From assembly GCA_025358085.1 (NCBI GenBank), contig JANYKT010000045.1, positions 1-39,623 of the forward strand: a DNA stretch of 39,623 nucleotides. Reading direction: 5' to 3'. Shown piece by piece: positions 21,737 through 37,285 of the stretch (positions are counted from its first letter, which is position 1; every line of letters begins with the position of its first letter). The DNA is from Deltaproteobacteria bacterium (GTDB lineage: Bacteria; Myxococcota; Myxococcia; Myxococcales; 40CM-4-68-19). The position numbers and the translations under genes were made by a program. Below the pieces are notes generated by a model. The model was given only the letters and a program-made list of their open reading frames with translations. It was not told the origin of the DNA and made no database searches.

Positions 21737-21931
21737 TTAGACCCGGCGCTCCTCGAGCTGCGCGGTCGACACGTTTTTTCTCGCACCAGACAGCTTGCCG
21801 GCGACAAGAAAGAGCGTGCCCATGACCAGCAACAGCAGCGGCTCCTCGAATGCCCCCGCGACCTTGCTGTACTCCAGCGCGAAGGCCGCAAGGGCGAACA
21901 TGGTTGCTGCGGCCGCTATGACTCGATGCAT
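21737..21931 (-). CDS. Small two-helix membrane protein (64 aa)
   Basis: The frame opens MHRVIAAAATMFALAAFALEY, then EEPLLLLVMGTLFLVAGKL, giving two likely membrane segments, and ends with a basic/polar tail. The ATG at 21931 has GGGAG 7 bases upstream, a good ribosome site, which favours a real gene over chance. It is convergent with the regulator gene and divergent from the export operon. No family was recognised. Frames extending upstream of this ATG are not supported. Confidence 0.6.
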   Translation of the reverse strand: MHRVIAAAATMFALAAFALEYSKVAGAFEEPLLLLVMGTLFLVAGKLSGARKNVSTAQLEERRV

Positions 21932-22178
21932 TCCGTAACTCCCATTAACGCCCCGTCCGTTCATTCCTTGAGCAAGACGTCTGCCAACGAACGATTGCCT
22001 TGGGAGGGCCGGGTGAGGTGCACCAAGTAAGAACGAAGTTTCCCGGTTGTGGAACGGGACCTGAGTGAGAAACCTTCTGAAGGGCAGGAGCGCCTGGCCG
22101 CCAGGTTGGTCTGAAGGCTGCAAGGAGACTGCTTGTGACTCGATAGATAGAAAGAAAAGCAGCGCAGGAAGCAAGCGC

Positions 22179-22194
22179 TGGCACACGACGTGCT
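22179..22194 (+). promoter_or_regulatory. Sigma-54 -24/-12 promoter of the export/polysaccharide operon
   Basis: TGGCACACGACGTGCT fits the -24/-12 consensus with exact GG/GC spacing; the mismatches are A for G at position 7 and G for T at position 12. It lies 50 bp before the OPX start in an intergenic stretch of 312 bp (21932-22243). The stretch also holds a possible activator dyad, TCCCG-N9-CGGGA, near 22049. No other gene was seen there. Confidence 0.8.
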
Positions 22195-22243: not shown

Positions 22244-22810
22244 ATGACTAAAGGGTTTGCTTACTGGATGATTTCAGCGGCGCTGCTGGCTTCGGCCGGC
22301 TGTGCGCATCACTCGGGAGTGCAGGACGATCAGGTCCAGCAGATCTCCGAGTACCGCCTGAGTCGCGAAGATGTGGTCGAGGTCTCCGTCTGGAAGGAGG
22401 CCGACCTCTCGCGCACGATTCCAATCCGGCCCGACGGCAAGATCACGCTGCCGCTGATCGGCGACGTACAGGCCGAGGGCTTGAAGCCGACTGAGCTCGA
22501 GCAGAACGTTCAGAAGCAGCTGGCCGGCCTGGTGCGCGACCCGCATGTGACGGTCATTGTTCATGACGTCAACGGCGCGCGCGTTTACGTCACCGGGATG
22601 GTGACCCACTCCGGTGCCTTCCCGTTGCGCAGCAACATGAACGTGCTGCAGGCGCTGGCGCTCGCGGGCGGTCTGCAGGAGTTCGCGGATCGCGGCGAGA
22701 TCGCGGTGGTGCGGGCCGATGGCAAGAAGGTCTCCGTGGATTATGACGACTTGGTCAATGGCAAGAGCAGGGTCTCGCTCGCCGCCGGCGACACCGTAGT
22801 GGTGCCTTAA
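22244..22810 (+). CDS. Short OPX-type polysaccharide export lipoprotein (Wza-like, 188 aa)
   Basis: This is the periplasmic, membrane-anchored part of a polysaccharide export channel. A lipoprotein signal ends in ASAGC (Cys20). Residues 36-108 form the poly-export domain (YRLSREDVVEVSVWKEADLSRTIPIRPDGKITLPLIG), and 112-165 an SLBB-type domain (VYVTGMVTHSGAFPL). At 188 aa it lacks the C-terminal membrane-spanning helix of E. coli Wza. In Myxococcus, such short OPX proteins work with a separate outer-membrane barrel, and the next gene encodes one. AGGGGA precedes the ATG. It is the first gene of the operon, just after the sigma-54 promoter. Confidence 0.92.
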   Translation: MTKGFAYWMISAALLASAGCAHHSGVQDDQVQQISEYRLSREDVVEVSVWKEADLSRTIPIRPDGKITLPLIGDVQAEGLKPTELEQNVQKQLAGLVRDPHVTVIVHDVNGARVYVTGMVTHSGAFPLRSNMNVLQALALAGGLQEFADRGEIAVVRADGKKVSVDYDDLVNGKSRVSLAAGDTVVVP

Positions 22811-22813
22811 GTC

Positions 22814-24049
22814 ATGACGATGGCCGCGCGCACGAACATTCAACTCGCGCTCGTGGCCAGCCTGCTGCTGGCTGCGCCAGAAGCGAGCGCAAAGGTCTAT
22901 GTCGAGCTCCGCCCCAGGGCGACGTTCATGGCGGGTTACGACGACAACGTGGCATTGGACGGCAACGGGGCGGACGGCTTCGGCCAGGCCATCCCGGGTC
23001 TCAAGCTCGACATCCTCGGCGAGCACCAGTTCCACGTGAACATCGACTGCCAGGCGGGCCTCGCTCACCTGGCCCACCCGGAGCGGTTCGGTATCGACCA
23101 GGGAGCATTCGCTTCCAACGAGTCGTGCCTCTTCGGGATGAAAGACCATCTCGATGCCCGCACCACGACTCGCTGGGTCGGCCGCTCCACCTACGCGCAG
23201 GACCCGTTCGCCATCGCGGGCTACGGCCTGCTGCTGCGGCCGGGGCAGACGCACATCTTCATCGGCAAGCTCTACGGGGAGATCGCCCACGCGCTCACCT
23301 CGACCACGACCTACGAAATCGGCGCCGCGGGTGAGGTGCTGAACTTCGGCTCCAACGACCGGGGCAACGGGTACGTCGCCTCGCCGCAGATGCGATACCT
23401 GGTGCGCACCTCGAACCGGGCCACCTGGGACGTCGGCGTCCGCGAGCAGCTCTTCTTCGCGATCGGCTCCGCGGCAGCAGAAATCACGACCGTCGACGCG
23501 CATGGCAACACGGTCACGACGAAAACCGCCGGAACGCCGGGGGGCCTGCTGAATGAAGGCCACGCGGCGTTGCTGGGCGTGACCTACCGGCTCACCGAGG
23601 TGACGAATCTGACCGTCCGCGGTGGCCCCCTGCTGGTCACCGGGATGCACGGCAGCACGTTGATTCCGACCGGCAAGGTCGAGTTGGAGGGGGTCACGCC
23701 GTTCGCTGGCGTGCACCTGACCCTCGCGCACGACGTGGTGATCGGTGCTTCCTCGGCCGGTCCGCTGGTCGGCGACGTCGCCGAAGTGGGGATGTACCAG
23801 AACCTGGGACGGCTCGAGGGCGAGTTGCGCGCGGGTCTCTATCGAAATGGATACATCAACGATCAGGGCGCTGCGTCGCTGATTGGCTACGGCGGCGAAG
23901 CGACGGTGAGCTGGAAGCTGTCGAATGAATGGAAGGTTGGAGTCGCGGCGCTGCGCGATGCGCAGATCAACGACCCTTATCTGGCCAAGGTGGACCGCAA
24001 TGTCCTGCAGCTTCGGCTGACCTGGGAACGCGCAAAGATCGGCGAGTAA
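22814..24049 (+). CDS. Outer-membrane beta-barrel, probable partner of the OPX protein (411 aa)
   Basis: The protein begins with a cleavable signal peptide (cleavage near ASA|K, residues 26/27), then VYVELRPRATFMAGYDDNVALDG and alternating hydrophobic/polar strands with many Tyr, Gly and Asn. The last strand ends LQLRLTWERAKIGE. The length suits a barrel of about 16-18 strands. It starts 3 bp after the OPX stop, so the two are surely co-translated. In Myxococcus, OPX proteins lacking a membrane-spanning region are paired with such barrels to secrete the polymer; this is an inference by gene order and topology, since barrels are poorly conserved in sequence. No enzymatic motif was seen. Confidence 0.8.
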   Translation: MTMAARTNIQLALVASLLLAAPEASAKVYVELRPRATFMAGYDDNVALDGNGADGFGQAIPGLKLDILGEHQFHVNIDCQAGLAHLAHPERFGIDQGAFASNESCLFGMKDHLDARTTTRWVGRSTYAQDPFAIAGYGLLLRPGQTHIFIGKLYGEIAHALTSTTTYEIGAAGEVLNFGSNDRGNGYVASPQMRYLVRTSNRATWDVGVREQLFFAIGSAAAEITTVDAHGNTVTTKTAGTPGGLLNEGHAALLGVTYRLTEVTNLTVRGGPLLVTGMHGSTLIPTGKVELEGVTPFAGVHLTLAHDVVIGASSAGPLVGDVAEVGMYQNLGRLEGELRAGLYRNGYINDQGAASLIGYGGEATVSWKLSNEWKVGVAALRDAQINDPYLAKVDRNVLQLRLTWERAKIGE

Positions 24050-24077
24050 TTCAATCTTTTTCCGGAGGAGGAAAGCA

Positions 24078-25466
24078 ATGGATCGCACTTATACGGTGGA
24101 TGAGCTGATCGGGGCGCTGAAACGCCGGTGGAAGATCATGGCAATCGTTTCTGGGAGCGTGCTCGCACTCGCTACTCTCATGATCGCGCGGATTCCGAAT
24201 GAATACTCGGCCCGCGCGCTGGTGATGGTGGAGGGGCTGCACCCGCACCCGGATCTGGTGGTGCCGATCATCTCCACTTCGCTGGAGGAGCGCGTCAAGA
24301 ACGTCCGATCGCAGGTCTATGCGCGTGGGCTGCTCACCACCGCCATCGAAGAGCTGAAGCTTTATCCGAAGGAGCGCGAGAAGAACGGCATGGACGCCGC
24401 GGTAGAAGCGCTGCGCAAGGATGCTGAAGTGCACGCCGAGGGCGACGACGCCTTCTCCATTACGGTGCGCGGCAAGGACAGGGATCAGGCGGCTCGCATT
24501 GCCAACCGCCTGGCCGAGCTGTTCATCGAGACGAACCTTCAGGTCCGCGCCGGGCAGGTGACGCGCACCCGCGACATCATCGCGCAGAAGCTCGCCGAGA
24601 TGCGGGGCGAGCTGGGCCAGTCCGAAGGCAAGCTCATTGCTTATAAGCGCGAGCACGCCAATGAGCTGCCGGAGCTCGTGGAATCGCGCATCCACGAGCG
24701 TGAACAGCTGTCCAAGCAGATCGAGATCGAGTCCACCTTCATGAACGACGCGAAGCACCGGCTCGACCTGATTGGCACCCAGCCGTCCGGCAAGGATACC
24801 GAGGTCGGCCGCTTGGAAGAGGAATACGACTTCTCCCGCGCCAAGCTGAGCGCCACCACCGCGCACCTGACCGCCGATAATCCGGACGTCATCTCGCAGC
24901 AGCGGGAAACGCAGGCAACCCTGGGGCGCCTCCAGGCCGCCCGCGCCCGCGCCGCGCAGAATGATCTCGAGTCGCGCCGGATGAACGAGGCGGTGAATCG
25001 CGGCCAGAAGCGTGTCAGTGCGCTCGAGGCCCGCGAGGAAAAGATCGACCGCGTGGTGGCCGTCTCCCCGCAGATCGCCGTCCAGGTCAATGAGATGGAC
25101 CGCGACCTCGACATGCTCAAGGCCAAGGTGATGTCGCTGACCTCCAAGAAGGCCGAGGCGGAGATCGCCGCCGACCTCGAGGCCAAGTCCGCGCCCACCG
25201 AGTTCCGCGTCCTCGAGAGCGCCTCGCCGCCGTTCCTGCCGAGCAGCCCGAATCGCCCGCAATTCTTCCTGCTGGCGCTGCTCGGTGCTCTCGCCCTGGG
25301 CTCCGCCATCGCGCTCGGCCAGGAGATGGGCGACCGTTCGCTGCGCAGCGAGTCCGAAGTGGGCACTGCGATTGCACTGCCTGTGCTGGCCTGCATCCCC
25401 CGCATTGCGGTGGCCGGGCACCGGGCTCCCCGTCTCTTGACCATCAACGCTGGGAGCGAGGCTTAA
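24078..25466 (+). CDS. Polysaccharide co-polymerase (Wzz/GumC-type PCP, 462 aa)
   Basis: This inner-membrane protein sets chain length and couples synthesis to export. Topology is classical: a cytoplasmic start, first membrane segment around residues 19-40 (IMAIVSGSVLALATLMI), a long periplasmic coiled-coil region with many Glu/Lys/Arg and Gln heptads, a Pro-rich motif (SPPFLPSSPNRP) and second segment about 396-415 (FFLLALLGALALGSAIALG). The C-terminal kinase domain of Wzc is absent; the next gene carries it separately, as in the CpsC/CpsD and Myxococcus arrangements. GGAGGAGG lies just before the ATG. The gene follows the barrel by 28 bp. Confidence 0.92.
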   Translation: MDRTYTVDELIGALKRRWKIMAIVSGSVLALATLMIARIPNEYSARALVMVEGLHPHPDLVVPIISTSLEERVKNVRSQVYARGLLTTAIEELKLYPKEREKNGMDAAVEALRKDAEVHAEGDDAFSITVRGKDRDQAARIANRLAELFIETNLQVRAGQVTRTRDIIAQKLAEMRGELGQSEGKLIAYKREHANELPELVESRIHEREQLSKQIEIESTFMNDAKHRLDLIGTQPSGKDTEVGRLEEEYDFSRAKLSATTAHLTADNPDVISQQRETQATLGRLQAARARAAQNDLESRRMNEAVNRGQKRVSALEAREEKIDRVVAVSPQIAVQVNEMDRDLDMLKAKVMSLTSKKAEAEIAADLEAKSAPTEFRVLESASPPFLPSSPNRPQFFLLALLGALALGSAIALGQEMGDRSLRSESEVGTAIALPVLACIPRIAVAGHRAPRLLTINAGSEA

Positions 25467-25509
25467 GCCGCCCTCGCATCTCAACCTTCAACCAAAAAGG
25501 ACTAACGAT

Positions 25510-26292
25510 ATGACGAGCATTCCTACAGCAATGAGCGGCCGTACTCCTTACCTCGAGCGGATTGAATCAGGCGCAGTCGAAACCATGACGGTGGACGAGC
25601 GCCTCGTAGCCATCACTGATCCGCAGGGCGCGGCGGCCGAGCAATACCGGATGCTGTTGCACCGGCTCCGGTACGCGCGATCGCTCCGGGGCAATGCGAC
25701 TGACCCGGGCGCGGGCGGCGTGGTCATCGCCGTGACCAGCTCGGTGCGGGGCGAGGGCGTGTCCCTCACCACGGCAAACCTGGCGCTGACCGCAGCCCGG
25801 TCCGGTGCGCGTGTGGCGCTGGTGGACTGCGACCTGCGACGCGGCAGCACCGCGGCGCTCTTCGGCATGGGCGCTCGCGCGGGTCTCGCGGAGGTGCTTG
25901 CAGGCAAGAACGAAATCGGCGAGGCGCTCGGCAACTACCATGAAGGAAAACTCGCCATCGTCCCGGCTGGCAAGTCCCCGGCCGAGTCGGCCGCGCTGCT
26001 CGCGAGCCCGCGCTTCGCCCAGACGCTGAGCCTCCTGCGCCAGCTCTTCGACGAGATCTATCTGGACGTTCCGCCGGCGCTGGCCACGGCCGATGCCGCG
26101 GTGGTGGTGCACAGGGCGGACGGCGTGGTGCTGGTGGTCCGTGCCGATGAGACGCCGCGAGAGCAGGTCGCCAGCGCAGTCCGTTCGCTGGACGGCGCGC
26201 CTCTCTGGGGAATGGTGCTGAATGGCGTCGATCCCTCGCGCGTCCCGCCGCCGCTCCCGGTTGTCCGCGGGCAGCTCGGGTCAGGCAGATAG
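25510..26292 (+). CDS. BY-kinase/CpsD-like ATPase lacking the Walker A Lys and Tyr tail (260 aa)
   Basis: The fold is that of bacterial tyrosine kinases that phosphorylate themselves and tune PCP oligomerisation: VIAVTSSVRGEGVSLTTANLA, Walker A' VALVDCDLRRGS (Asp106, Asp108) and Walker B EIYLDVPPA. However, the Walker A Lys is Val84 (GEGVS where GEGK[ST] is usual), and there is no Tyr cluster at the C-terminus (ends VVRGQLGSGR). So either it is a non-phosphorylating regulator, or another residue replaces the Lys. I believe GEGVS variants recur in some deltaproteobacterial CpsD-like proteins but could not check. It is separate from its PCP, 43 bp upstream. Confidence 0.85.
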   Translation: MTSIPTAMSGRTPYLERIESGAVETMTVDERLVAITDPQGAAAEQYRMLLHRLRYARSLRGNATDPGAGGVVIAVTSSVRGEGVSLTTANLALTAARSGARVALVDCDLRRGSTAALFGMGARAGLAEVLAGKNEIGEALGNYHEGKLAIVPAGKSPAESAALLASPRFAQTLSLLRQLFDEIYLDVPPALATADAAVVVHRADGVVLVVRADETPREQVASAVRSLDGAPLWGMVLNGVDPSRVPPPLPVVRGQLGSGR

Positions 26293-26309
26293 CTCATTTT
26301 TCCAGCACG

Positions 26310-26343
26310 TGGCCGGGGGCTTTTTTGCCAAGCCTCCCGGCCA
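26310..26343 (+). promoter_or_regulatory. Strong hairpin between kinase-like and initiating transferase genes
   Basis: TGGCCGGG (26310-26317) pairs with CCCGGCCA (26336-26343), and an inner GC/GC pair extends the stem; the loop holds TTTTTT. The T-run is inside the loop rather than after the stem, so it is not a normal intrinsic terminator. It could be an RNA processing or attenuation point setting the ratio of export to biosynthesis proteins. Confidence 0.5.
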
Positions 26344-26380
26344 TTGCCAGTCTTTCAGTGGACCTTGGAGGCATCTCGCC

Positions 26381-28021
26381 ATGCCGCAATTCGCAGGACA
26401 TTGGTACAGCGGTCGCGCAGCCCGTCTGGTGCTCATCGAGACGGTGCTGGTCGGCCTTGCCCTGTTCGTGGCCGGCCGCCACGTCCACGGGGCGCGGCAA
26501 ATCGCGGCGCTGATCGCCGCGGCAGGATGCGTCCCGGCCGCGCTTTACCTGGCCGACCTCTACGATCCACAAGTCATGCGCAACGACCGCAGCCGCGGGG
26601 CGGGCGCGCTGAAGGCGCTCGGCTTCGCGGCGCTGGCCGCGGCCATCTTTGGCGTGCTCGGCGGCGGGCTGCCGCGCGGCGTGCTCATCGACACCATCGG
26701 CATCGCCAGCGTCGGCGTGCTGCTGGCCCGGGCGGCGCTGGTGGCGCGGTTCGACGAGCGCGGCCACAACCGCGTGCTCATCATCGGTGCCGGGAAGCGG
26801 GCGCAAGAGATCGCCCGGCTGATTCGCACCGAGGCCTATGGCGAATACGAGGTCGCCGCCACGCTCGACCCCATGCAGGACCTGGCGCTCCCGCAGACCG
26901 AGGACCAGGTGATGAGCGCGGTCGGGAACGCGCGGGGCACTCTCATCGAGCAGGGTATCGGGCCGCAGCTGGTCGCGGTCGAGGACAACAAGCACGAGAC
27001 AGTAGCGATGGCGCCGTCGCCGCAAGTCGTCCCTGGCGCACAGCTCATCGTCGGACCGGGCAACGCTTCTCCCATGCTGCTGCAGGGCCTGGCTGCGGAG
27101 GCGTCGGTGCACGCCGGCCAGCGGACACAGTTGATCGCCAGCATCGAGCAAATGCCCCTCGCGCAGGTGATGCAGCTTCCCCACGCCGCGCAGACCGTGG
27201 TGGTGCCAGCGAGGACCCTGGGCAGCGCCGTGCTGGAGCTGCGGGCCGACACCGTGGTCATCGCTTCAGACGAGCGGCGCATGCGCATGCCGGTCGAGGA
27301 ACTGATTCGCCTGCGGCTGTCCGGCACCAGCGTTTTCCCGGCGCAGCGGTTCGCCGAGCGCGTGCTGCGCCGCGTGCCGCTCAGCCTGGTTCGGCCGAGC
27401 GATTTCGCCATCGGCCAGGGGCTCACTTCCCCGCTCTCCTCCGCGGTCAAGCGTGTGTTCGATCTGTTGATGAGCGGCATCCTGCTGTTGCTCGCGTCGC
27501 CTGTAGTCGCGCTGCTCGCGGCGCTGATCAAACTCGAATCAAAAGGACCGGTGTTCTACTCGCAGGACCGCTGCGGCCGGGGAGGCAAGCTGTACAAAAT
27601 CCACAAGCTCCGCACCATGAAGCAGGACGCCGAGAAGCTGTCCGGCCCGGTCTGGGCCGCGCAGAAGGATCCGCGCATTACCCGCCTGGGCGGCTTCCTC
27701 CGCAAGACGCGACTCGACGAGATCCCGCAGGTCTTTGCCGTCTTCCGCGGCGACATGTCTTTTGTCGGCCCGCGGCCCGAGCGGCCCTTCTTCGTCAGCC
27801 AGCTCAAGCAGTCGATTCCGTTCTTCGGCCTGCGCGAGGCGGTCAAGCCGGGCATCACCGGCTGGGCGCAGATCCGCTACCCGTACGGCGCCACGGTGGA
27901 GGACTCGAAAAACAAGCTCGAGTACGACCTCTATTACGTCGAGCACCAGTCGCTCTTCCTCGACCTCGCCATCTGCTTTCACACCGTCAAGACCGTGCTC
28001 TTCGGGCGCGGCGCTCGCTAG
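26381..28021 (+). CDS. Initiating sugar-phosphate transferase (PHPT, WbaP/EpsB-like, 546 aa)
   Basis: It starts repeat-unit assembly by moving a sugar-1-phosphate to undecaprenyl phosphate in the inner membrane. The N-terminal 130 residues hold about four membrane segments; residues about 140-340 form a Rossmann-like domain (VLIIGAGKRAQEIARL). From 357 comes the bacterial sugar transferase domain: membrane entry KRVFDLLMSGILLLLASP, then GPVFYSQDRCGRGGKLYKIHKLRTM and TRLDEIPQVFAVFRGDMSFVGPRPERP, with catalytic Asp-Glu and substrate-binding PRP all present. ATG at 26381 has GGAGG 9 bases upstream. Corresponds to ExoE/EpsZ-type genes in Myxococcus. Sugar specificity is unknown. Confidence 0.93.
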   Translation: MPQFAGHWYSGRAARLVLIETVLVGLALFVAGRHVHGARQIAALIAAAGCVPAALYLADLYDPQVMRNDRSRGAGALKALGFAALAAAIFGVLGGGLPRGVLIDTIGIASVGVLLARAALVARFDERGHNRVLIIGAGKRAQEIARLIRTEAYGEYEVAATLDPMQDLALPQTEDQVMSAVGNARGTLIEQGIGPQLVAVEDNKHETVAMAPSPQVVPGAQLIVGPGNASPMLLQGLAAEASVHAGQRTQLIASIEQMPLAQVMQLPHAAQTVVVPARTLGSAVLELRADTVVIASDERRMRMPVEELIRLRLSGTSVFPAQRFAERVLRRVPLSLVRPSDFAIGQGLTSPLSSAVKRVFDLLMSGILLLLASPVVALLAALIKLESKGPVFYSQDRCGRGGKLYKIHKLRTMKQDAEKLSGPVWAAQKDPRITRLGGFLRKTRLDEIPQVFAVFRGDMSFVGPRPERPFFVSQLKQSIPFFGLREAVKPGITGWAQIRYPYGATVEDSKNKLEYDLYYVEHQSLFLDLAICFHTVKTVLFGRGAR

Positions 28022-28039
28022 CCGAGGCTCAACACAACC

Positions 28040-29515
28040 ATGGCACTCGCCGTCGCGAAGGACCTGCTCGAGCAGGGCTTCACCGTTGAAGTCCTCGAGG
28101 GCCGCGATGCTTTTGCGGGTCTCGAAAAGCAGTGGAACGCCGCGCTCGCCAAGGGCCCGCGCGACGAGCCGATGCTTCGCCACGAATGGATGAAAGCGTG
28201 GATCGAGAACTTCGCTCCGGGCGCGCCGCTGCGGATCTTCGTGGCTCGATCCGCTGGTCATGAGCTCCAGGCAGCGGTGCCACTGGTCGAGACCAAAGAG
28301 CGCAACCTCGACACCTGTTTTGTGCCCATGACCACCTGGGCGACGCCCTGCAACGACCAGTCGCAGCGCGGCGGCGTGCTGCTGGGGACGCGCGGACTCG
28401 AGGCGCTGCAGGCAATCTGGGACAAGCTGGTTCTGACCCCCGGCTGGGATCGCCTGCGCCTGCGCGAGCTGCCCGACGGCGGTGGCGAGTGGACCCTGCG
28501 CGCGATCGCCGAAAAGGCCGGCTATCCCTGCGGCCTGTGGGTCTCGCTGCGGTCTCCCTATCTGCCGCTGCCCGAGCTGCCGAAGCCGGAGTTGGTCAGT
28601 GCTCCGCCCGCCGTCGCGGCCGTAGGTCCGGTCGCCACTGCGCCCGCCATCGCTGTGGACGGCGCAGCTGGAGCCGGCGCTGCGAAGAAGCCGCCCAAGC
28701 CGGCCAAGCCGCCGAAAGCGCAGCCGCTGCCGGATCGCTACGCCGCCGTCGAGGCGAACGTCGACGCCAAGTTCCGCCAGAACTTGCGTCGCCGGAAGCG
28801 CCGTCTCGCCGAGCAGGGAGAGGTGAAGTACCTCGTCGTCGACGGCAAGGACGCGAAGAAGCTCGACGAGGCATTGGGCGACTTCTTCGTCCTCGAGGCG
28901 AGCGGCTGGAAGGGCGAGGGCGGCAGCGCCATCGCGCAGAAGCCGGAGCTGGTGGGCTTCTACACCCAGCTCGCGCGCGACGCGGCCAAGCGGGGTGCGC
29001 TGGCGCTCGGCTTCCTGACTTTGAACGGAAAGCCAATCGCGGCGCACCTGACGCTGGTACAGGCGGAGCGCAGCTTCCTGCTCAAGCTCGGCTACGACGA
29101 AAGCTTCGCCGAGTATTCGCCCGGCCAGCAGCTGGTGAGCGAGGCCATCAAGAATGCCTGCCAGCGCGGCCTGCGCGAGTTCGACTTCCTCGGACCCTGG
29201 ATGGAGTGGAAGGCCGACTGGGAGACCCAGGTGCGCACGCACCAGTGGCTGACCATCTTCCGGCCCACGCGCGCGGGCGTCCTCGTGCACGAGGCGCGCT
29301 TTACCGTCTGGCCGGTGGCGAAGAGCCTGGTTGCGCGGGCGAGGCAGTTCTTCGCGGAGTGGAAGAGCCGCCGCGGGAACTCGAATGCTTCTGCCGCAGA
29401 CTCGAATGCTCCCGTCGCAGACTCGAATGCTCCCGTCGCGGGGTCAAAGTCTCCGGCGGCAGACTTGCCTGCCGCACCGCCCAAGTCTTCAACCAGAGAA
29501 GCGAGCCCGAGCTGA
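28040..29515 (+). CDS. FemAB/BioF2-like GNAT acyltransferase (491 aa)
   Basis: This is a cytoplasmic GNAT of the FemAB-like 'acetyltransferase 6' type; relatives attach amino acids or acyl groups to amino sugars. The N-terminal GNAT lobe holds ...EKQWNAALAKGPRDEPMLRHEWMKAW. An Ala/Pro/Lys-rich linker (about 176-235, with KKPPKPAKPPK) separates it from the second lobe, whose FLLKLGYDESFAEYSPGQQLVSEAI...LREFDFLGPWMEWKADW is diagnostic. The C-terminal 45 residues are low-complexity and include a tandem SNA-containing repeat. It resembles ExoG by position, first of a FemAB-DegT-FemAB trio; donor and acceptor are unknown. Confidence 0.85.
   Translation: MALAVAKDLLEQGFTVEVLEGRDAFAGLEKQWNAALAKGPRDEPMLRHEWMKAWIENFAPGAPLRIFVARSAGHELQAAVPLVETKERNLDTCFVPMTTWATPCNDQSQRGGVLLGTRGLEALQAIWDKLVLTPGWDRLRLRELPDGGGEWTLRAIAEKAGYPCGLWVSLRSPYLPLPELPKPELVSAPPAVAAVGPVATAPAIAVDGAAGAGAAKKPPKPAKPPKAQPLPDRYAAVEANVDAKFRQNLRRRKRRLAEQGEVKYLVVDGKDAKKLDEALGDFFVLEASGWKGEGGSAIAQKPELVGFYTQLARDAAKRGALALGFLTLNGKPIAAHLTLVQAERSFLLKLGYDESFAEYSPGQQLVSEAIKNACQRGLREFDFLGPWMEWKADWETQVRTHQWLTIFRPTRAGVLVHEARFTVWPVAKSLVARARQFFAEWKSRRGNSNASAADSNAPVADSNAPVAGSKSPAADLPAAPPKSSTREASPS
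29379..29441 (+). repeat. Three 21-bp tandem repeats in the FemAB-like C-terminus
   Basis: Units 29379-29399, 29400-29420 and 29421-29441 share ACTCGAATGCT followed by a C/G-rich part; the last two differ by one or two bases. Being a multiple of three, they add SNA-type residues without changing frame and form a disordered tail. Such slippage-prone repeats commonly vary in number among strains. Confidence 0.85.
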
Positions 29516-29517
29516 CC

Positions 29518-30720
29518 ATGGCCAATCCCGCTCAACATCTCCGCGTCGCTCAAGGGCAGGGCGAGCGCGCGCCTGCGCCAACCCGCACCATTCCCTGCAT
29601 GCCGACAACCTGGCCGCACATGCTGCTTCCGCGGCCCGCGGCGTCGGCGCCGCTGGTCTTTCCCTTTGACCAGCCAGGCCTGCGCTATCGATACTTCTGC
29701 CGCAACGCCGTCTGGGATGCCGTGCAGCTGCTCGGCCTCGCCGGCAAGGAAGTGCTGGTCCCCGCCTATCACCACGGCGTCGAGCTGGAGACGCTGCTCG
29801 CCGCCGGGGTAAAGCCCATCTTCTATCGAGTCGATACCAGCATGCGGGCCGACTATCAGGACGCGAAACGCAAGCTGACCAAGAGCACCGCCGCGCTTTA
29901 CGTCATCCACTATGCGGGCTTCTCACAGGACATGGACGCGGCCCGCGCGCTCGCCGACGAAGCCTCGGTGCCGCTGGTGGAAGACTGCGCGCTGGCGCTG
30001 CTTAGCCGCAATGGTGAGAAGCCGCTCGGCTCCTACGGGGACGTCAGCGTCTTCTGCCTGTACAAGACCCTGCCGGTTCCAAACGGCGGCGCGTTGCTGG
30101 CCCGCGGTGAGTTCGCCCAGGGCGTGCGCTCGCTGCCTGCCGCCACGCGGCCGGCGCTACCGTCCACCGCGTCGCACTTGATCGGCAGTCTGCTTTCGAA
30201 TCTGGAGCTGCGCACCGGCGAAACCGGCAAGAAGGCGCGACAGGCCATCCGCGACCTCGGCCACCTGGTCATCCGTCGCTCGGGCATCGAGCGCGTTTCC
30301 ACTGGAACGCAGCATTTCAACCAGGACGACGTCGGCCTGGGAATGAGCGGAGCGTCTCATGTGGTGCTGCGCAACCAGGACTTCGCGCACATCGTCGAGC
30401 GCCGGCGGCGCAACTACTTTCTGCTCTATTCAATGCTGCGCGACACGGCCCCGCCAGTCACCGGCGAACTGACGCCGGGCGTGTGCCCACTCTTCTATCC
30501 AATCAGCATTCCCAATAAGGCGAATGCGATGGCGCGGCTGCTCGCGCGCGGCATCGAGACCGTGGACTTCTGGCGCGTGCGCCACCCGGCCGTGGCCGCC
30601 GGCGAGTTCCCCGAAGTGGAGAAGCTGCGCGGGAACATCCTCGAACTTCCGGTGCACCAGGATCTTTCTCCCGGCGACGCCGAGCACATTGCCCTGTGCG
30701 TGAAGGAGCTCTTGTCGTGA
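29518..30720 (+). CDS. DegT/DnrJ-type PLP aminotransferase-like protein (400 aa)
   Basis: It probably makes an amino sugar for the polymer by transamination of a nucleotide-keto-sugar, in the cytoplasm. Fold landmarks are LVPAYHHGVELETLLAAG (substrate loop), YVIHYAGFSQD, VEDCALALLS and VFCLYKTLPVPNGG, where Lys183 fits the PLP-binding Lys. The N-terminus carries an extra 40 residues not typical of the family (two nearby ATGs at 29518 and 29599). It starts 2 bp after the first FemAB-like gene and overlaps the second by 4 bp (GTGA), placing it between them; the Myxococcus exo operon has the same trio. The start of the frame far upstream is antisense noise; ATG 29518 is used. Confidence 0.82.
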   Translation: MANPAQHLRVAQGQGERAPAPTRTIPCMPTTWPHMLLPRPAASAPLVFPFDQPGLRYRYFCRNAVWDAVQLLGLAGKEVLVPAYHHGVELETLLAAGVKPIFYRVDTSMRADYQDAKRKLTKSTAALYVIHYAGFSQDMDAARALADEASVPLVEDCALALLSRNGEKPLGSYGDVSVFCLYKTLPVPNGGALLARGEFAQGVRSLPAATRPALPSTASHLIGSLLSNLELRTGETGKKARQAIRDLGHLVIRRSGIERVSTGTQHFNQDDVGLGMSGASHVVLRNQDFAHIVERRRRNYFLLYSMLRDTAPPVTGELTPGVCPLFYPISIPNKANAMARLLARGIETVDFWRVRHPAVAAGEFPEVEKLRGNILELPVHQDLSPGDAEHIALCVKELLS

Positions 30721-32006
30721 ACGCTTTCGCAGCTGCGCAAGCGCCGTCGGTCGTGACCACTCAAGTGGTGACGGACGCCGCGGAGCTCGCAAGATTGCGT
30801 GATGCCTGGCACGCGCTGAACGAGACCGCGCGTGCCGGATGCCTCTTCCTTGGACCCGAGTGGCTGGTGCCCTGGTGGGAGACGTTCGGCGCCGGCGAAG
30901 CCCGAAGTCGCGCGCTGCGCGTCATCACTGTCAGTGATGGCGACAAGCTCGTCGGGCTCTGGCCGCTCTTCGTCGACGAAGTGAAGCTCGGCGGCATCGC
31001 GGTCAAGCGGCTTGCCTTCCTGGGCGACGGCGCGACCGGCTGCGATTATCTCGATATCCTCGCCGCACCGGGGCGCGAGCAGGAGGTGCTCGAGGCATCT
31101 TTAAAGCAGGTCGGTGAACTCGAGTGGGATCTGCTCGATCTCGACGGCCTCTGGCGCGAGAGCACGACCGCCCTGCAGCTCGCGCTGCGGTTCCCCAGTG
31201 AGAAGCGCGTTCTCGCCGGGAATGGCGGGCTGGGCGGTCCGGCTACGCAGGTCGTCCGCGATGGCCGTATCCGTTATGTCTGCCCGAACTTCGCCTTGAC
31301 GGGAACGTATGATCAATACCTGCAAGGGCTCGGCCGCCGCGAGAATCTGAAGCGCCGCGAGAAGTGGCTGAATCGCCAGCCGGGCACTTCCATTGAATGC
31401 GCGCGCACGCTGCAGGACGCGCCCGCGGCCACCGAGCGGTTCTTCGAATTGCACGACGCGCGCTGGGCCGAAGACGGCGGCAGCGACGGGCTTGCCGACG
31501 ATCGCTTCCACGCCTTCCACCGCAAAGCCACGCAGAACCTGGCCGAGCGCGGCTGGCTGCGCATGTACACGCTCTTCGCGGCTCGGCGTCCGGTCGCGTC
31601 GGTGTACGGCGTCGTCCACCGGGGAAAGTTCCTTTACTACCAGTCGGGATACGACCCGGCCTGGGGCGTCAAGAGCGTGGGCCTCGTGCTTCTGGCGCGA
31701 ACCGTCTCCGACGCCTACGCCGAAGGCCTCGACGAGTTCGACTTCCTCCGCGGCAACGAAGGTTATAAGGCGCAATGGGCGCGCAGCGAGCGCTGGACCA
31801 TCCAATTGCGCGTCTGGCGCGGCGCCCGCGGGCGGTCAGCCAAGGCTGCGTCCGAGGCTTCGAAGATGGCGCGCGATACCTTCAAGAGCGCGCTGCCGAC
31901 GCACCTCATCGAAAAGGTCCGCAAGGCGCGAAGGCTTTTGCGCCGTGGTGAGTTCGATCTCGCCTCTGCCGCCTCTTTGTTCAGCAGCGGACGAGAGGAC
32001 CCTTGA
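30717..32006 (+). CDS. Second FemAB/BioF2-like GNAT acyltransferase (429 aa)
   Basis: It is again a two-lobe GNAT of the 'acetyltransferase 6' group. Lobe 1 has ELARLRDAWHALNETARAGCLFLGPEWLVPWWETF; lobe 2 has KFLYYQSGYDPAWGVKSVGLVLLARTV...LDEFDFLRGNEGYKAQW, the family hallmark. The GTG at 30717 overlaps the preceding TGA (GTGA), a standard coupled start; ATG 30696 lies inside the aminotransferase gene. With the first FemAB-like protein and the deacetylase, it suggests the polymer carries acylated or aminoacylated amino sugars. In Myxococcus, ExoG and ExoI fill this place. Acyl donor unknown. Confidence 0.85.
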   Translation: MNAFAAAQAPSVVTTQVVTDAAELARLRDAWHALNETARAGCLFLGPEWLVPWWETFGAGEARSRALRVITVSDGDKLVGLWPLFVDEVKLGGIAVKRLAFLGDGATGCDYLDILAAPGREQEVLEASLKQVGELEWDLLDLDGLWRESTTALQLALRFPSEKRVLAGNGGLGGPATQVVRDGRIRYVCPNFALTGTYDQYLQGLGRRENLKRREKWLNRQPGTSIECARTLQDAPAATERFFELHDARWAEDGGSDGLADDRFHAFHRKATQNLAERGWLRMYTLFAARRPVASVYGVVHRGKFLYYQSGYDPAWGVKSVGLVLLARTVSDAYAEGLDEFDFLRGNEGYKAQWARSERWTIQLRVWRGARGRSAKAASEASKMARDTFKSALPTHLIEKVRKARRLLRRGEFDLASAASLFSSGREDP

Positions 32007-33299
32007 TTGCAAGGTGATGCACAGATTGCCGTCGCCGGGCGGGAGACTGTGAAAGCCGTGCTCGAGCGACAGAGGGCGGAAATGGCGCACATCAAAGATG
32101 AAGCGATTCAGCTCGCGCGGCGCACGGTCAAGGGTGCGGCGGCAGTGGCGCTCCATTACAGCGGCATGCGCAACGTGCTGTCCACGCTGCAGCGGCGCTC
32201 GGTCGGCGGCCGGCGCGTGCTCATCCTCAGCTATCACCGGGTGGTGGGGAATATTGAGCTGGAGGCAAAGCGCGGCCTGCCCACACTGAACATCTCGCAG
32301 GATACCTTTCGCAAGCACCTCGAGACGGTGCAGGAGACGCACGACATCGTGCGGCTCGACGACGCGCTCGATATCCTCGACGGCACCCGCCGTGCCCGGC
32401 GCGACGTGGCGGTGATCACCTTCGATGATGGCTATCGGGACGTCTATACCTGGGCCTATCCGGTCATGAAGGCGATGCATGTCCCGGCGGTCGTCTATGT
32501 GCCTTCCAGTTTCATCGGCACCACCGCTATGCGGCTCGGCCACGACCGGCTCTGGGCGACGCTGGTCCGCATGCGCGACCGCAAGCTGGGCCCGGTCGCG
32601 GTGGGGGTCTCAGGCGAAGCCGGGCAGTGGCTGGTCGCGGCGTTCGAGGGAGCACACACTCCCAACAAAGTCCTCGAGCGGCTGATTGCAAAGCATTCGA
32701 CTCCAGGGCTCTACAAGCTCGCCGATGCGCTCGAGGAGCGGCTTGGCCTCAAGGGCGAAGAAGTGCCCGAAGGCCAGACGGCAATGAGCTGGGAGATGCT
32801 GCGCGAGATGGACGCGCACGGCATCGAGACCGGCGGCCACACGGCCGACCACACGGTGCTCACCAACAGCGTGCTCTCCGAAGCGCGCCGGGAAGTGGCC
32901 GAGTGCAAGCGGGTGATTGAAAAGAATCTCGGCAAGTCGATTCACCACTTCGCCTATTGCAATGGCTATTACAGCGCGGGCGTGGCGCAGGCCCTGCGCA
33001 GCGAAGGATTCCGCAGCGGCGTTACCACCGAGGATATGTCCAATGTTCCCGGCACCGACCCCTTCGCGCTCAAGCGCAAGGTGCTTTGGGAGAACTCCTC
33101 GGCCGGCATCCTCGGGACCTTCTCGAAGTCCCTGGCTGCCTGCCAGTTCAACGACACCTTCGGTATCCTCTCGGTGCAGACGCCGGTGATGGGCGCGCGC
33201 CCGACCAACGATGACGTCGGGGACGCCTCCGCGAACGCTTCAGTCTCCGGCGACCACAACAGGAGCGAGGCTTCGGACAAGCTCGCCGCAAACGGATAG
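32007..33299 (+). CDS. Polysaccharide deacetylase (NodB family, 430 aa)
   Basis: It removes N-acetyl (or O-acetyl) groups from sugars. The NodB domain has TFDDGY at 138-143 (Asp140, Asp141; metal and base) and HTADH at 278-282, the two zinc His residues; a YCNGYYS loop follows. No signal peptide is seen, so it probably acts in the cytoplasm on lipid-linked repeat units or is exported otherwise. Several starts are possible: TTG at 32007 directly after the previous stop (with GAGAGG 8 bases before), GTG at 32049 or ATG at 32082. I kept the longest. The C-terminal 45 residues are polar and disordered. Confidence 0.88.
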   Translation: MQGDAQIAVAGRETVKAVLERQRAEMAHIKDEAIQLARRTVKGAAAVALHYSGMRNVLSTLQRRSVGGRRVLILSYHRVVGNIELEAKRGLPTLNISQDTFRKHLETVQETHDIVRLDDALDILDGTRRARRDVAVITFDDGYRDVYTWAYPVMKAMHVPAVVYVPSSFIGTTAMRLGHDRLWATLVRMRDRKLGPVAVGVSGEAGQWLVAAFEGAHTPNKVLERLIAKHSTPGLYKLADALEERLGLKGEEVPEGQTAMSWEMLREMDAHGIETGGHTADHTVLTNSVLSEARREVAECKRVIEKNLGKSIHHFAYCNGYYSAGVAQALRSEGFRSGVTTEDMSNVPGTDPFALKRKVLWENSSAGILGTFSKSLAACQFNDTFGILSVQTPVMGARPTNDDVGDASANASVSGDHNRSEASDKLAANG

Positions 33300-33306
33300 T
33301 CAAATC

Positions 33307-34812
33307 ATGGCGAGACCGAGGGGGATACTGGGGCAGGCGGGCCCGCTGTTGCTCGGGCGGCTGGGGGCAACGGTTCTCGGCTTTGCCTTGCCTTTGATAT
33401 TGACGCGGCTTTTGCCGCAATCGGAATTCGGTACCTACAAGCAGGTGTGGCTGGTGGTTACCACCGGCTTCTTCATGCTGCAGCTTGGTATCGCGCAAAG
33501 TCTCTACTACTTCGTTCCGCGCAAGGACGGCCGCGAGCAGGCCTGGCTGACCCAGTCCATCGGCGCCATGGCCCTCCTGGGCTCGCTCTGCGCGACGGTC
33601 ATCTATCTCGGACGGTTCCGCATCGGCGCGCAATTCGCCAATCCGGAGATCGCCACTTTCGGCGTGCCGATGGCGCTGATCGCACTGACCATGATCCTTA
33701 CCGCGCCGCTCGAGATAGCGCTCACGGCCGAGGGCAACGTCAAGGCAGCCGCGTGGATCATCTTCCTCTCCGACGCGGTCCGCGTGGCCGCGAGCGTGGT
33801 CCCGCTGTTGATGGGCTGGGGCCTGCGGGGCTTCTTCTGGGCGTACGTCCTGCACGGGGTATTGCGCTCGGTGGCAATCGCGGTGCTGCTGCTCCGCCGC
33901 GGCGCTCCGGAGTGGGACTGGAAGCTCTTTCGCCAGCAGCTTGCCTATGCCCTGCCATTCGGCGCCGCCATCCTGCTCGATGTCCCGCAGAAGACTTTTC
34001 ACCAATGGGCGGTGGGCTGGTCGGTCGATCCGGCCATGTTCGCCATCTACGCGCAGGGCTGCTTCCAATTGCCCATCGTGAACCTGCTCTATTCGCCCAT
34101 CAGCGACGTGCTCCAGGTCCGCATGGCCGAGCCCGGCAGCCACGAGCACCACGTCCACCTTTTCCACGACGCGAACCAGCGGCTCGCCGCGGTCTTCTTT
34201 CCCTTCACCGCCGGCATGGTGACGGCCGGCGCGCTCTTCATCCCGGCGCTCTTCACGCACCGCTACGACGCGTCCATCCCCATCTTCCGCATCGCCGTCC
34301 TGACCACGCCGTTCGCCTGTCTTCCCCTGGAGGGCGTGCTGCGCGCGCTGGGTCGCACCCGCTATCTTTTCAAAATATTCTTCTGGAAATTGCTGGTAAC
34401 GGTTCCCACCGTGCTCCTCGGCCTCAAGCTCTTCGGAATGGCGGGCGCCATCGCGGGCCACGGCCTCTCCGAGTCGGCCATCCGCGTCGTCATGCTGAAT
34501 CGCACTCGCAAGGAACTCAACTCGACCTGGGCCGGGATCCTGCCCTGGAAACACCTCGCGCTGCTCGGCGCAACTTCGCTGGTCGCCTGTGTGCCGGTGG
34601 TCCTCATCTCTCATTACACGTCCACGGGTCCGCGTCCCTTCCTCGCGCTCTGCGCGGCCGGCGCCGCATATGCCGCGGTCTATCTCGCCTGCCTGGCGCT
34701 CACCCCGGGCGCCGGCACCCCGGTGGCGAAGGTCAAGCGCATCCTGCTCGGCGTCGGCGCTCACACGGAGCCACTGGGTGTAGTGAGCGTGCGCCCGGGC
34801 GTCGCCGCTTAA
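33307..34812 (+). CDS. wzx: Wzx-type polysaccharide flippase (501 aa)
   Basis: This is an inner-membrane MOP-superfamily transporter that flips lipid-linked repeat units to the periplasm. It has about 12-14 membrane segments: GPLLLGRLGATVLGFALPLILTRL, WLVVTTGFFMLQLGIAQSLYYF, then repeated hydrophobic stretches to the end, with a typical FGTYKQVWLV after the first. The start is ATG 33307, 7 bp after the deacetylase stop; the longer frame from 33211 is antisense to it. No Wzy polymerase gene is seen in the window, so it lies elsewhere. Last gene before the RAYT insertion. Confidence 0.92.
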   Translation: MARPRGILGQAGPLLLGRLGATVLGFALPLILTRLLPQSEFGTYKQVWLVVTTGFFMLQLGIAQSLYYFVPRKDGREQAWLTQSIGAMALLGSLCATVIYLGRFRIGAQFANPEIATFGVPMALIALTMILTAPLEIALTAEGNVKAAAWIIFLSDAVRVAASVVPLLMGWGLRGFFWAYVLHGVLRSVAIAVLLLRRGAPEWDWKLFRQQLAYALPFGAAILLDVPQKTFHQWAVGWSVDPAMFAIYAQGCFQLPIVNLLYSPISDVLQVRMAEPGSHEHHVHLFHDANQRLAAVFFPFTAGMVTAGALFIPALFTHRYDASIPIFRIAVLTTPFACLPLEGVLRALGRTRYLFKIFFWKLLVTVPTVLLGLKLFGMAGAIAGHGLSESAIRVVMLNRTRKELNSTWAGILPWKHLALLGATSLVACVPVVLISHYTSTGPRPFLALCAAGAAYAAVYLACLALTPGAGTPVAKVKRILLGVGAHTEPLGVVSVRPGVAA

Positions 34813-35423: not shown

Positions 35424-36062
35424 ATGAAGAAAGCGGTGCCTCAACAAATAAAACTGAGGTTCGCTCCTCGCGGCGGCAAGCGGCGCGGCGCTGGCCGCAA
35501 GCCCAACGGACTGACCGCCGGCTTGCCTCATCTGCGCCGGCCGAAGCTCGCGAGCCGGCAGCCGGTGCATGTGACGCTGCGAGTGCACGAGCACGTCTGG
35601 AACCTTCGGACCCGGCGCTGCTTCCGTCTCATTGCTCCCACGTTCCGGGCGATGCGCGCACGCGGCACCTTCCGGCTGGCTGAATACTCAATCCAGGGCA
35701 ATCACCTGCACCTGATCCTCGAGGCGGGCGACGCGCGCTGCCTTGCTCGCGGCATGCAGTCCCTCGAGATTCGCGTTGCGAAAAGGCTGAACAAGCTGAT
35801 GAATCGCAGCGGCCCCGTCTTCGCCGACCGCTATCACGCGCACATCCTGCGGACCCCGACCGAAGTCGCGAACGCGCTCCGCTACGTGCGCGGCAACTTC
35901 GCGGTACACGCCGGGCGGCGCGGAAAAACGGTCCCGGACGCAGCCGATCAATACTCATCCGCCATTCTGGTCGAGGGAGCACTCCCGCACGAGCAGGACG
36001 GGCCGCTGGTGTCGGAGCCGAAGTCCTGGCTGCTGAGGTTCGGTTGGCGCCAGGCGCGGTGA
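35424..36062 (+). CDS. RAYT: REP-associated tyrosine transposase (Y1 family, 212 aa)
   Basis: This DNA-binding endonuclease is of the IS200/IS605-like HUH type that processes REP palindromes. Visible are the basic N-terminal GKRRGAGRKPNG box, PVHVTLRV, the metal motif GNHLHLILEA (HLH) and FADRYHAHILRTPTEVANALRYVRGN with the region of the catalytic Tyr. It seems intact. The ATG at 35424 follows an AT-rich stretch. It is the complete copy of the family decayed at 18402. It sits inside the polysaccharide locus, right before the second operon, but need not have a role in it. Its REP targets were not identified. Confidence 0.9.
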   Translation: MKKAVPQQIKLRFAPRGGKRRGAGRKPNGLTAGLPHLRRPKLASRQPVHVTLRVHEHVWNLRTRRCFRLIAPTFRAMRARGTFRLAEYSIQGNHLHLILEAGDARCLARGMQSLEIRVAKRLNKLMNRSGPVFADRYHAHILRTPTEVANALRYVRGNFAVHAGRRGKTVPDAADQYSSAILVEGALPHEQDGPLVSEPKSWLLRFGWRQAR

Positions 36063-36122: not shown

Positions 36123-36260
36123 ATGAACAGGATCGGACTCAACTCAATGGCCGCGGCCGCGTTTCCAATGCGGTCTCTTGCCCCGAAGGTTCAGGGGACA
36201 CACCTTGCTTGCGGGCGCTTCCTGTTTTGGGGAGCGAGCGGCGAGAGGCGGCCTTCATGA
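36123..36260 (+). CDS. Possible 45-aa leader ORF overlapping the glycosyltransferase start
   Basis: A small frame begins MNRIGLNSMAAAAFP and ends in TGA, overlapping the next ATG as ATGA. It starts about where the sigma-54 transcript should begin (near 36120), so it might be a leaderless upstream ORF coupling translation to the next gene. It has no good ribosome site and no known match; it may be chance. Confidence 0.25.
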   Translation: MNRIGLNSMAAAAFPMRSLAPKVQGTHLACGRFLFWGASGERRPS

Positions 36261-37285
36261 AAGTCACGACGCGGCGCATTGCATTCATCGGTGAGCCGGA
36301 CCTACAGGTCGCGGATCAGCTGCGCGAAACCGGCTACCAGACCGAGGTCCTTGATTCGCGCTCGAGCCTGTCTTTCGCCCGCGCCCTCAATCGCCTGAAA
36401 CCCGCGGCCATCCACGCGCGGAAAGATCACCTCAAGGCGGCACTGATCGCCAAGCTGTCCGGTACTCCACTGTTGCTGCAGGTCAGAGGAGAAGATGTGT
36501 CGAGGTCCACGGCCTATGCAGCTCGCCTGGCCGACCGGGTCCTGTGCGGCGCGGCGATGGTGCGCGAGGCGCTCGTCGCCTTGGGCGCGTCGCCGTCCTC
36601 GACCTGCATCCTGCGCGGCCTCCTCGACGTGACCACCGACGTGCGGGCCGCGAATCTGTTTCCACCCATGCTCGACCCGGCCACTCGCTGGGTCGTTGCC
36701 GCGACGCCGACCGACGGCGCGGACCGTGGCCACCAGGACCTCCTCCTCGCCTTCATGACCGTGGCGCGCACGCGGCCTAAGTTGAAGCTCCTGATCGCGG
36801 GCAAAGGTCCCGAGGCAGGGAAGATGCGCGCGCAAGCCGAGCGCGCCGGAATGCTGGCGCGGATCATCGTCTACCCGGTCTCGCGTGAGCAGCTGCCCGC
36901 GGTCTTTGCGCGCGCCGCCGCGGTGGTGGGCCCAAGCCGCTCGGGGAACATGCCCGATCCGCTCCCGGAGGCGCTGGCTGCCGGCGCGCCCGTGATCGCC
37001 ACCGCGCTGGGTCCGCATACCTCCTGGATCCGCGAAGGCCGCACTGGCTGGCTGGTTCCGGCCCGCGCTCCTGTCGCGCTGGCGACGCGCCTGGCGCAGG
37101 TCGTCGACGACCCGACCACCGCCATGAAGATCGGGCAGAACGCGCGGGCCGTGGCGCTGGAGCTTGCCGCCCCTCGCGCCGTCGCCCGTGAGCTGGCGCG
37201 CTGCTACGCTGGCATGTCGCCTCTGCGCCCGCTTCTCGGAGGTGTTCACTTTCCGCAGGCTCCGCGCGGCTTGCGGCACGCTTAG
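36257..37285 (+). CDS. Family 4 glycosyltransferase (342 aa)
   Basis: This GT-B-fold, cytoplasmic, membrane-associated enzyme adds a sugar to the growing lipid-linked repeat. The N-terminal half (RIAFIGEPDLQVADQLRETGYQTEVLD) is a short acceptor-binding lobe. The C-terminal half has KLLIAGKGPEAGKMRA, AVVGPSRSGNMPDPLPEALAAGAPVIAT and GRTGWLVPARAPVALATRLAQV, the GT4 nucleotide-sugar site with its E-x7-E-like region (PLPEALAAG). ATG 36257 has GAGAGG 9 bases before; an upstream in-frame extension to 36044 lies over the promoter. First gene of the second operon. Confidence 0.9.
   Translation: MKVTTRRIAFIGEPDLQVADQLRETGYQTEVLDSRSSLSFARALNRLKPAAIHARKDHLKAALIAKLSGTPLLLQVRGEDVSRSTAYAARLADRVLCGAAMVREALVALGASPSSTCILRGLLDVTTDVRAANLFPPMLDPATRWVVAATPTDGADRGHQDLLLAFMTVARTRPKLKLLIAGKGPEAGKMRAQAERAGMLARIIVYPVSREQLPAVFARAAAVVGPSRSGNMPDPLPEALAAGAPVIATALGPHTSWIREGRTGWLVPARAPVALATRLAQVVDDPTTAMKIGQNARAVALELAAPRAVARELARCYAGMSPLRPLLGGVHFPQAPRGLRHA

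Follow-up and report, generated by a model that had tools for sequence, protein, structure and literature searches.

The stretch of DNA analysed here, hereafter the window, makes up a complete contig (C1, 39,623 bp, JANYKT010000045.1) in the assembly of an uncultured soil myxobacterium (G000; 5.42 Mb, 217 contigs, 98% complete). From position 22,244 to the contig end it probably represents a consolidated exo (major spore coat, MASC) locus, which would be driven by the regulator ActB through sigma-54 and in which the kinase homolog ExoD would act as a scaffold. Orthology, the arrangement of the genes, the sigma-54-like sites, the missing kinase motifs and the presence of nfs and exoJ-K genes are read from the sequence, and this explanation accounts for them best; ActB binding, the polymer make-up and the spore-coat role are what we infer from them.

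The genes of the core block (Table 1) follow one another on the forward strand as OPX, barrel, polysaccharide co-polymerase (PCP), kinase-like protein, initiating hexose-1-phosphate transferase (PHPT), FemAB-like, DegT and again FemAB-like proteins. This is the order of Myxococcus exoA-E and exoG-I, as recognised in the first-pass annotation, and the gaps between genes at 22,244–34,812 are small or negative. The exoF gene, already held to be lacking, is indeed not present, only 18 bp lying between exoE and exoG in the window. In Myxococcaceae exoF codes for a YvcK-like protein. Relatives of the window have the same genes in the same order, as do records named as Myxococcus, Corallococcus, Hyalangium and Anaeromyxobacter, and the order is therefore far beyond chance. 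Homology suggests later starts than the open reading frames for exoE (26,381), exoH (29,518), the exoM-like gene (33,307) and the downstream glycosyltransferases (36,257 and 37,347).

Orthology was evaluated against a complete 9.0 Mb Myxococcaceae-type genome (G038), and order-mates, complete genomes among them, were available in the genome collection. The nearest named relatives of the window are two Deltaproteobacteria-labelled metagenome-assembled genomes (MAGs; DP_8 and DP_35), followed by Myxococcaceae and Anaeromyxobacter; the family of the window is designated f1, and Anaeromyxobacter with its allies f6. The exo, eps, bps, exoJ-P and nfs labels in G038 are assigned from gene order, sizes and cited papers, and the eps (8.85 Mb locus) and bps (2.32 Mb OPX) labels are assumed from position.

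The window OPX gives 175 bits at 3.811 Mb of G038, the exo locus, whereas its matches at 8.852 Mb and 2.321 Mb reach only 78 and 73 bits, respectively. The barrel, PCP, BY-kinase homolog, PHPT, ExoG, ExoH and ExoI are matched at the same 3.811 Mb locus in the same order. PHPT (ExoE) scores 330 bits at exo versus 172 and 114 bits elsewhere in this genome. DegT (ExoH) has one match each in G038, G034 and G036, always inside the exo run, and the top match of the first FemAB-like protein (ExoG) falls at the exo locus of all three. The mapping against exo, eps and bps loci, proposed earlier as the way to check the identification, thus favours exo over both others, the best matches in G038 lying at the exo operon and not at the OPX loci placed at eps or bps. 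Orthology to Myxococcus exo is regarded as firm, judging by these matches. A locus of the eps (exopolysaccharide, EPS) or bps (biosurfactant) type could resemble exo in its export part, as PMC9601211 describes a translocon of short OPX and barrel common to all three Myxococcus pathways. This assignment was rejected as highly improbable, because the best matches are not at eps or bps genes, OPX and PHPT match far better at exo, and ExoG and ExoH match best in the exo run.

The likeness to exo could also be due to modules shared with XrtA/PEP-CTERM exopolysaccharide loci, since NCBIfam XrtA models are among the best matches for OPX, PCP, the BY-kinase homolog, PHPT and the amidotransferase. All these scores remain under the curated cut-offs (OPX 141 against 180, PCP 158 against 279, BY kinase 130 against 231, PHPT 379 against 393, amidotransferase 405 against 817) and thus below the equivalog level. 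Such a locus needs an exosortase (PF09721), and none was found in G000, a 98% complete assembly in which a gap could hide one; exosortase is present in only 5 of 40 genomes. The XrtA assignment was consequently rejected and is given next to no weight.

The exoB product has no Pfam match. Its AlphaFold2 model (alignment of 15 sequences, mean pLDDT 83.9) contains 18 long strands, and Foldseek relates the model to outer-membrane barrels. One of these is AlgE, an exporter of alginate, which ranks ninth with an E value of 6.2e-7 and a TMq of no more than 0.38. The sequence is 24% identical to the barrel gene product at the exoB position of G038. Pairing of a short OPX with an 18-strand barrel is described for ExoA/ExoB, EpsY/EpsX and WzaB/WzpB (Schwabe et al., PMC9601211).

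The second half of the locus corresponds to a separate part of the Myxococcus pathway. The deacetylase, the Wzx flippase and the glycosyltransferase at 37,347–38,441 all map to one block of G038, 30 kb downstream of exoI. This block comprises a deacetylase, Wzx, a hexapeptide transferase and two glycosyltransferases, which is the make-up of exoL-M-N-O-P, and the sole Wzx match in G038 is at the exoM position. According to PMC7484181, ExoM is the flippase and exoN encodes a paralogue of serine acetyltransferase; ExoN was not found in the window. In three relatives (G002, G005 and G007) the amidotransferase gene adjoins exoO and is directly followed by exoP (56–59%), so the window ends one gene short, and the two Myxococcus exo blocks are joined here. 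Such consolidation itself is not new, since a contiguous MASC cluster was reported earlier in Anaeromyxobacter Fw109-5 (Islam et al., PMC7310880). ExoJ (Wzy, 38%) and ExoK (glycosyltransferase, 43%) are encoded as a pair at one locus of G000 outside the window (contig C71). The glycosyltransferase at 36,257–37,285 was rejected as ExoK (27% versus 43% for the C71 gene).

The amino-sugar polymer with aminoacyl groups put forward in the first-pass annotation, after the sporulation-linked GalNAc/glycine polymer of Myxococcus, is still a putative product of the locus. A deacetylase and an amidase had been expected in the first-pass annotation to modify the polymer further. The deacetylase is retained, as the ExoL match and not as an extra decoration; the supposed amidase is an amidotransferase/asparagine-synthase-like protein encoded outside 22,244–34,812. 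Between exoM and the next glycosyltransferase gene (34,813–36,256) the window has about 1.4 kb with a transposase-like open reading frame (ORF), versus about 28 bp in G002, and the gap is much smaller in relatives. A sigma-54-like site occurs at 36,094, after this ORF, and a search for intergenic repeats near it gave nothing clear.

The gene immediately upstream of the locus, at 19,908–21,599, is the ActB ortholog, judged by reciprocal best hit: its product gives 465 bits to the actB gene of G038 (the next best of 39 gives 340), and the reverse search gives 462 versus 368. Four features underlie the actB label in G038, namely this reciprocity, a GGDEF gene next to it, the promoter core known from publications and how far the gene lies from exoA. 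In G038 actB is preceded by a GGDEF gene and followed by a GNAT gene, and actA (GGDEF) is upstream of actB in the published actABCD operon (PMC4877007, PMC4320627). ActB corresponds to MXAN_3214 and the exoA gene to MXAN_3225 (table in PMC2129111). The actB gene adjoins exoA in five relatives of the family and in other families (G001, G002, G004, G005, G007, G015, G016, G019, G022, G033), as it does in several records that bear the name Anaeromyxobacter. It is 10–14 kb from exoA in the three Myxococcaceae checked (G034, G036, G038), and in G012 and G017 no copy was detected close to exo.

Sigma-54-like (-24/-12) sites before exoA and in G038 were counted at a score of at least 26, a threshold set after the first sites had been seen. 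The actB gene itself is preceded by a TGGCACA-N4-TTGCT-type site in 6/6 f1 members read; this site is weak in G015 and G019, and none was found in G022 and G016. The published core of the M. xanthus actB promoter is TGGCACA-N4-TTGCT (PMC9765219, Table 1). Before exoA, a site reaching the threshold occurs at 31–94 bp (180 bp in one case) in 19 of 21 regions, and G017 scores 25.0. Among named loci the count is 17 of 20 (L079 and L125 have too little upstream DNA), six loci being common to both sets. Across 440 kb of G038 (880 kb on both strands) 23 sites reach 26; three of them precede exoA (by 112 bp), exoL (by 68 bp) and exoJ (by 69 bp), and one before actA has the published act promoter core. 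The chance of such sites at 3/3 exo operons of G038 is about 3e-8, for a threshold picked after the first sites.

A palindrome of the GGAAC-N4-GTTCC type could be the upstream activator site. It is exact in G002, G004 and G007, and copies with a single mismatch occur in G005, in G038 and in part of the Anaeromyxobacter sequences; taken alone, the copy in the window is not significant. As a firm ActB site it was rejected, and it is kept as a candidate only, because the motif was derived from the f1 alignment, the window copy has two mismatches and conservation outside f1 is partial. Binding of ActB to the exo promoter is presumed from these sequence features. No report of a direct action of ActB on exo was found in the literature searched, key subscription papers being outside its reach.

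The kinase-like gene noted earlier is present (BY-kinase-like, 260 aa), and its catalytic activity has probably been lost. Walker A of ExoD reads GEGVS, GEGTS or EEGTS instead of the expected GEGKT in 6/6 f1 members read (GEGVS in the window), and the C-terminus has no tyrosine in any of the six. Since both the Walker A lysine and the C-terminal tyrosines are lost, f1 ExoD is likely a pseudokinase in an exo locus; Walker A' and B are largely kept, only the Walker A lysine being clearly lost. ExoD of three Myxococcaceae has GEGKT and two tyrosines, and Anaeromyxobacter-type genomes have GEGR. ExoD of f1 thus departs from the active BY kinase that is a feature of exo loci. This is treated as variation, not as exclusion from exo, because the gene is orthologous by position. 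In M. xanthus BtkA/ExoD is active and essential, and the EPS pathway has EcpK, a pseudokinase that serves as a scaffold (PMC12004946).

The use of the polymer was approached through the nfs genes. They were recognised in G038 by order and sizes (273, 441, 512, 1220, 499, -, 680 and 200 aa), the published sizes being 294, 442, 512, 1202, 499, 94, 682 and 200 aa (PMC2875238). G000 contains nfs-like A-B-C-D-E-G genes in order on contig C104 (L164). Its NfsC gives 310 bits to NfsC of G038 versus 165 bits to the Glt paralogue, and another G000 copy favours Glt, so that the NfsC assignment has reciprocal support. This cluster supports, but does not prove, spore-coat use in f1, which is judged probable from gene content. 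Alternatively, the locus could be an exo ortholog by descent whose polymer is used in biofilms or as a capsule of vegetative cells, and its employment in spore coats would then have come later, in Myxococcaceae. All seven f6 genomes with exoH carry the locus and have a weak NfsC match, no better than Glt-type paralogues, and the repeat-unit genes of the window differ (no ExoN, an extra glycosyltransferase and an amidotransferase). However, G000 and its relatives carry the nfs-like cluster, and the regulator gene beside the locus is actB; an M. xanthus mutant in this gene aggregates and sporulates poorly (PMC4048283). Vegetative use is therefore considered unlikely, though by no means negligible, and the spore-coat reading is preferred.

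Several points weigh against this spore-coat reading and against control by ActB. Inheritance of exo and nfs is not strictly joint: among 40 genomes (MAG incompleteness included) exoH occurs together with a strong NfsC in 24, without one in 10 and is absent beside it in 2, while 4 have neither, and 7 of the 10 genomes with exoH but without a strong NfsC belong to f6. The window Wzx (about 40% to ExoM) is hardly closer to ExoM than a second Wzx of f1, so the flippase and polymerase assignment is that of a candidate. This second, equally ExoM-like Wzx is encoded a few kb before ExoJ in G002 and G005 (L183, L184) and may serve either a different polymer or, as an additional flippase, the exo pathway; since it is about as ExoM-like as the window Wzx, the polymer may differ from the M. 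xanthus exo polymer. The repeat unit may differ as well, because the window has no ExoN and has an extra glycosyltransferase and an amidotransferase. No sigma-54-like site was found upstream of exoA in G001 (the same contig as L049), and none with a score of 26 was found just before the nfs or exoJ-K genes of G000. Another sigma-54 activator than ActB could use the exoA site. The sigma-54 activator Nla6 is linked to late sporulation genes and could be the true activator of exo. The published regulators of M. xanthus exo are FruA and MrpC (PMC4320627, PMC7643160).

With ActB kept as the preferred activator, the following sequence of events could be proposed. The response regulator ActB is an enhancer-binding protein of the sigma-54 type. 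Its gene is probably transcribed from a sigma-54 promoter of its own, and ActB would then turn on exoA via the site 49 bp upstream. ExoE would begin repeat units on undecaprenyl phosphate, sugars being added by ExoO, the further GT4 enzyme and ExoP (off the contig). The amino sugars could be modified by ExoG, ExoH, ExoI, the ExoL-like deacetylase and the amidotransferase. The ExoM-like flippase would carry the unit across the membrane, the Wzy protein ExoJ, encoded elsewhere in the genome, would polymerise it with the PCP ExoC, and ExoD of f1 would serve as a scaffold, not as a kinase. Exit through the outer membrane could be realized by the short OPX ExoA with the 18-strand barrel ExoB. The polymer most likely coats the resting cell, where it would be packed by the Nfs-like complex of G000.

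A small ORF for a membrane-type protein (60–75 aa, opposite strand) is located between actB and exoA, with profile matches at this place in 13 genomes; no profile match was obtained in the Myxococcaceae loci searched. The GG-N10-GC spacing of its own sigma-54-type site is kept in 6/6 f1 members read (scores 24.5–27).

A broader proposal is offered tentatively, with slightly less than even confidence. ActB, a C-signal regulator in M. xanthus, could have had as its ancestral direct job the switching on of exo via sigma-54, linkage and promoter being kept across the order. Myxococcus would have split exo into three operons with a sigma-54 site on each, ExoD of f1 would have turned into a pseudokinase with a scaffold role, and the small divergent protein could be an unrecognised part of the switch or of the export machine. 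The ActB/sigma-54 arrangement, the predicted pseudokinase and the small divergent protein are the elements that go beyond known exo loci. The window gives a single-locus view of a pathway kept in three places in Myxococcus and names a candidate for its direct regulator; a direct link between ActB and exo, if true, would be a simpler cause and a simple control circuit. It could also show how, in nature, the BY kinase of a spore-coat pathway loses its activity while the pathway stays orthologous, which bears on the need for phosphorylation in Wzx/Wzy export.

Table 1. Features of the exo locus and its upstream region in the window (gene calls by Pfam and NCBIfam on the forward strand from 22,244 to the contig end).
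Feature	Position	Strand	Basis
Sigma-54-type -24/-12 site TGGCACA-TCGC-TTGCT, 52 bp before actB	19840..19855	+	site scan
ActB-type NtrC-like response regulator: receiver, sigma-54 AAA+, Fis-type helix-turn-helix (HTH)	19908..21599	+	Pfam, reciprocal best hit
Small membrane protein, 64 aa, probably two transmembrane (TM) segments	21737..21931	-	profile search; TM topology read from sequence
Sigma-54-type site for small divergent ORF, TGGCAGACGTCTTGCT	21971..21986	-	site scan
GGAAC-N4-GTTCC-like palindrome, weak copy (2 mismatches), candidate upstream activator site	22030..22042	.	f1 alignment
Sigma-54-type site TGGCACA-CGAC-GTGCT, 49 bp before exoA	22179..22194	+	site scan
exoA: short (D1D2-type) OPX export protein, 188 aa, PF02563 and SLBB	22244..22810	+	Pfam, G038 match
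exoB: outer-membrane 18-strand beta-barrel, 411 aa	22814..24049	+	AlphaFold2, Foldseek
exoC: PCP-2 co-polymerase without kinase domain, 462 aa	24078..25466	+	Pfam/NCBIfam, synteny
exoD: stand-alone BY-kinase fold, 260 aa, predicted pseudokinase	25510..26292	+	motif reading
exoE: initiating hexose-1-phosphate transferase (PHPT)	26381..28021, ORF opens 26222	+	Bac_transf 4.7e-63
exoG: FemAB-like/GNAT (Acetyltransf_6) transferase	28040..29515	+	Pfam, G038 match
exoH: DegT/DnrJ aminotransferase	29518..30720	+	Pfam, G038 match
exoI: FemAB-like/GNAT (Acetyltransf_6) transferase	30696..32006	+	Pfam, synteny
exoL-like polysaccharide deacetylase	32007..33299	+	47% to G038 exoL-position gene
exoM-like Wzx flippase	33307..34812, ORF opens 33211	+	40% to G038 exoM position
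REP-associated tyrosine transposase-like ORF, between exoM and glycosyltransferase	35424..36062	+	NF047646 43.6 bits, cut-off 80
Extra GT4 glycosyltransferase, neither exoK nor exoP	36257..37285	+	Pfam, comparison
exoO-like GT4 glycosyltransferase	37347..38441	+	43% to G038 exoO-position gene
Class-II glutamine amidotransferase/asparagine-synthase-like, truncated by contig end	38417..39622	+	TIGR01536 425 bits

Some observations were made outside the locus. At 12,927–15,486 of the window (reverse strand, GC 0.60) a QatC-like gene (158.9 bits) overlaps a gene for an HTH and IrrE-type peptidase protein (RmrA-like, 94 bits); this stretch of lower GC is possibly a fragment of a defence island. The 952-aa protein encoded at 6,779–9,637 (reverse strand) has a long N-terminal part, and its ATP-binding domain is fused to an ABC-2 membrane domain. 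A record titled Comamonas sp. KCTC 72670 (L053) contains a Myxococcus-like exo operon at Myxococcaceae-level identity and is probably mislabelled or contaminated. An Acidobacteria MAG contig (L072) encodes an NtrC-like regulator, OPX, PCP, BY kinase, PHPT, a FemAB-like protein, a deacetylase and Wzx, with a sigma-54-like site before OPX.

The closest known system is the MASC/SPS pathway of M. xanthus, comprising exoA-I (MXAN_3225-3233), exoL-P and exoJ-K. Genes A-E and G-I and their order are the same in the window, the relative order of L, M and O is kept, with P following in relatives, and J-K are likewise a separate pair. The actB gene of M. xanthus belongs to the same chromosomal neighbourhood (MXAN_3214 versus 3225, PMC2129111), whereas in the window it is immediately upstream. 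The window further differs in the fusion of exoA-I with exoL-M-O, in lacking exoF and exoN, in having one more glycosyltransferase and the amidotransferase, and in an ExoD with neither the Walker A lysine nor the tyrosine tail.

The Anaeromyxobacter MASC cluster is similar to the window in its contiguous exo genes, the ActB-type regulator beside exoA and the sigma-54-like site before exoA. Unlike the window, Anaeromyxobacter-type genomes have exoJ-K inside the cluster, no strong NfsC, and arginine instead of valine or threonine in Walker A of ExoD. EcpK of the M. xanthus EPS pathway, as described in PMC12004946, resembles f1 ExoD in being a stand-alone BY-kinase fold encoded next to a kinase-less PCP and in having no C-terminal tyrosine tail. 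No Walker motif is left in EcpK, which works for EPS, whereas f1 ExoD has clearly lost only the Walker A lysine and belongs to the exo pathway.

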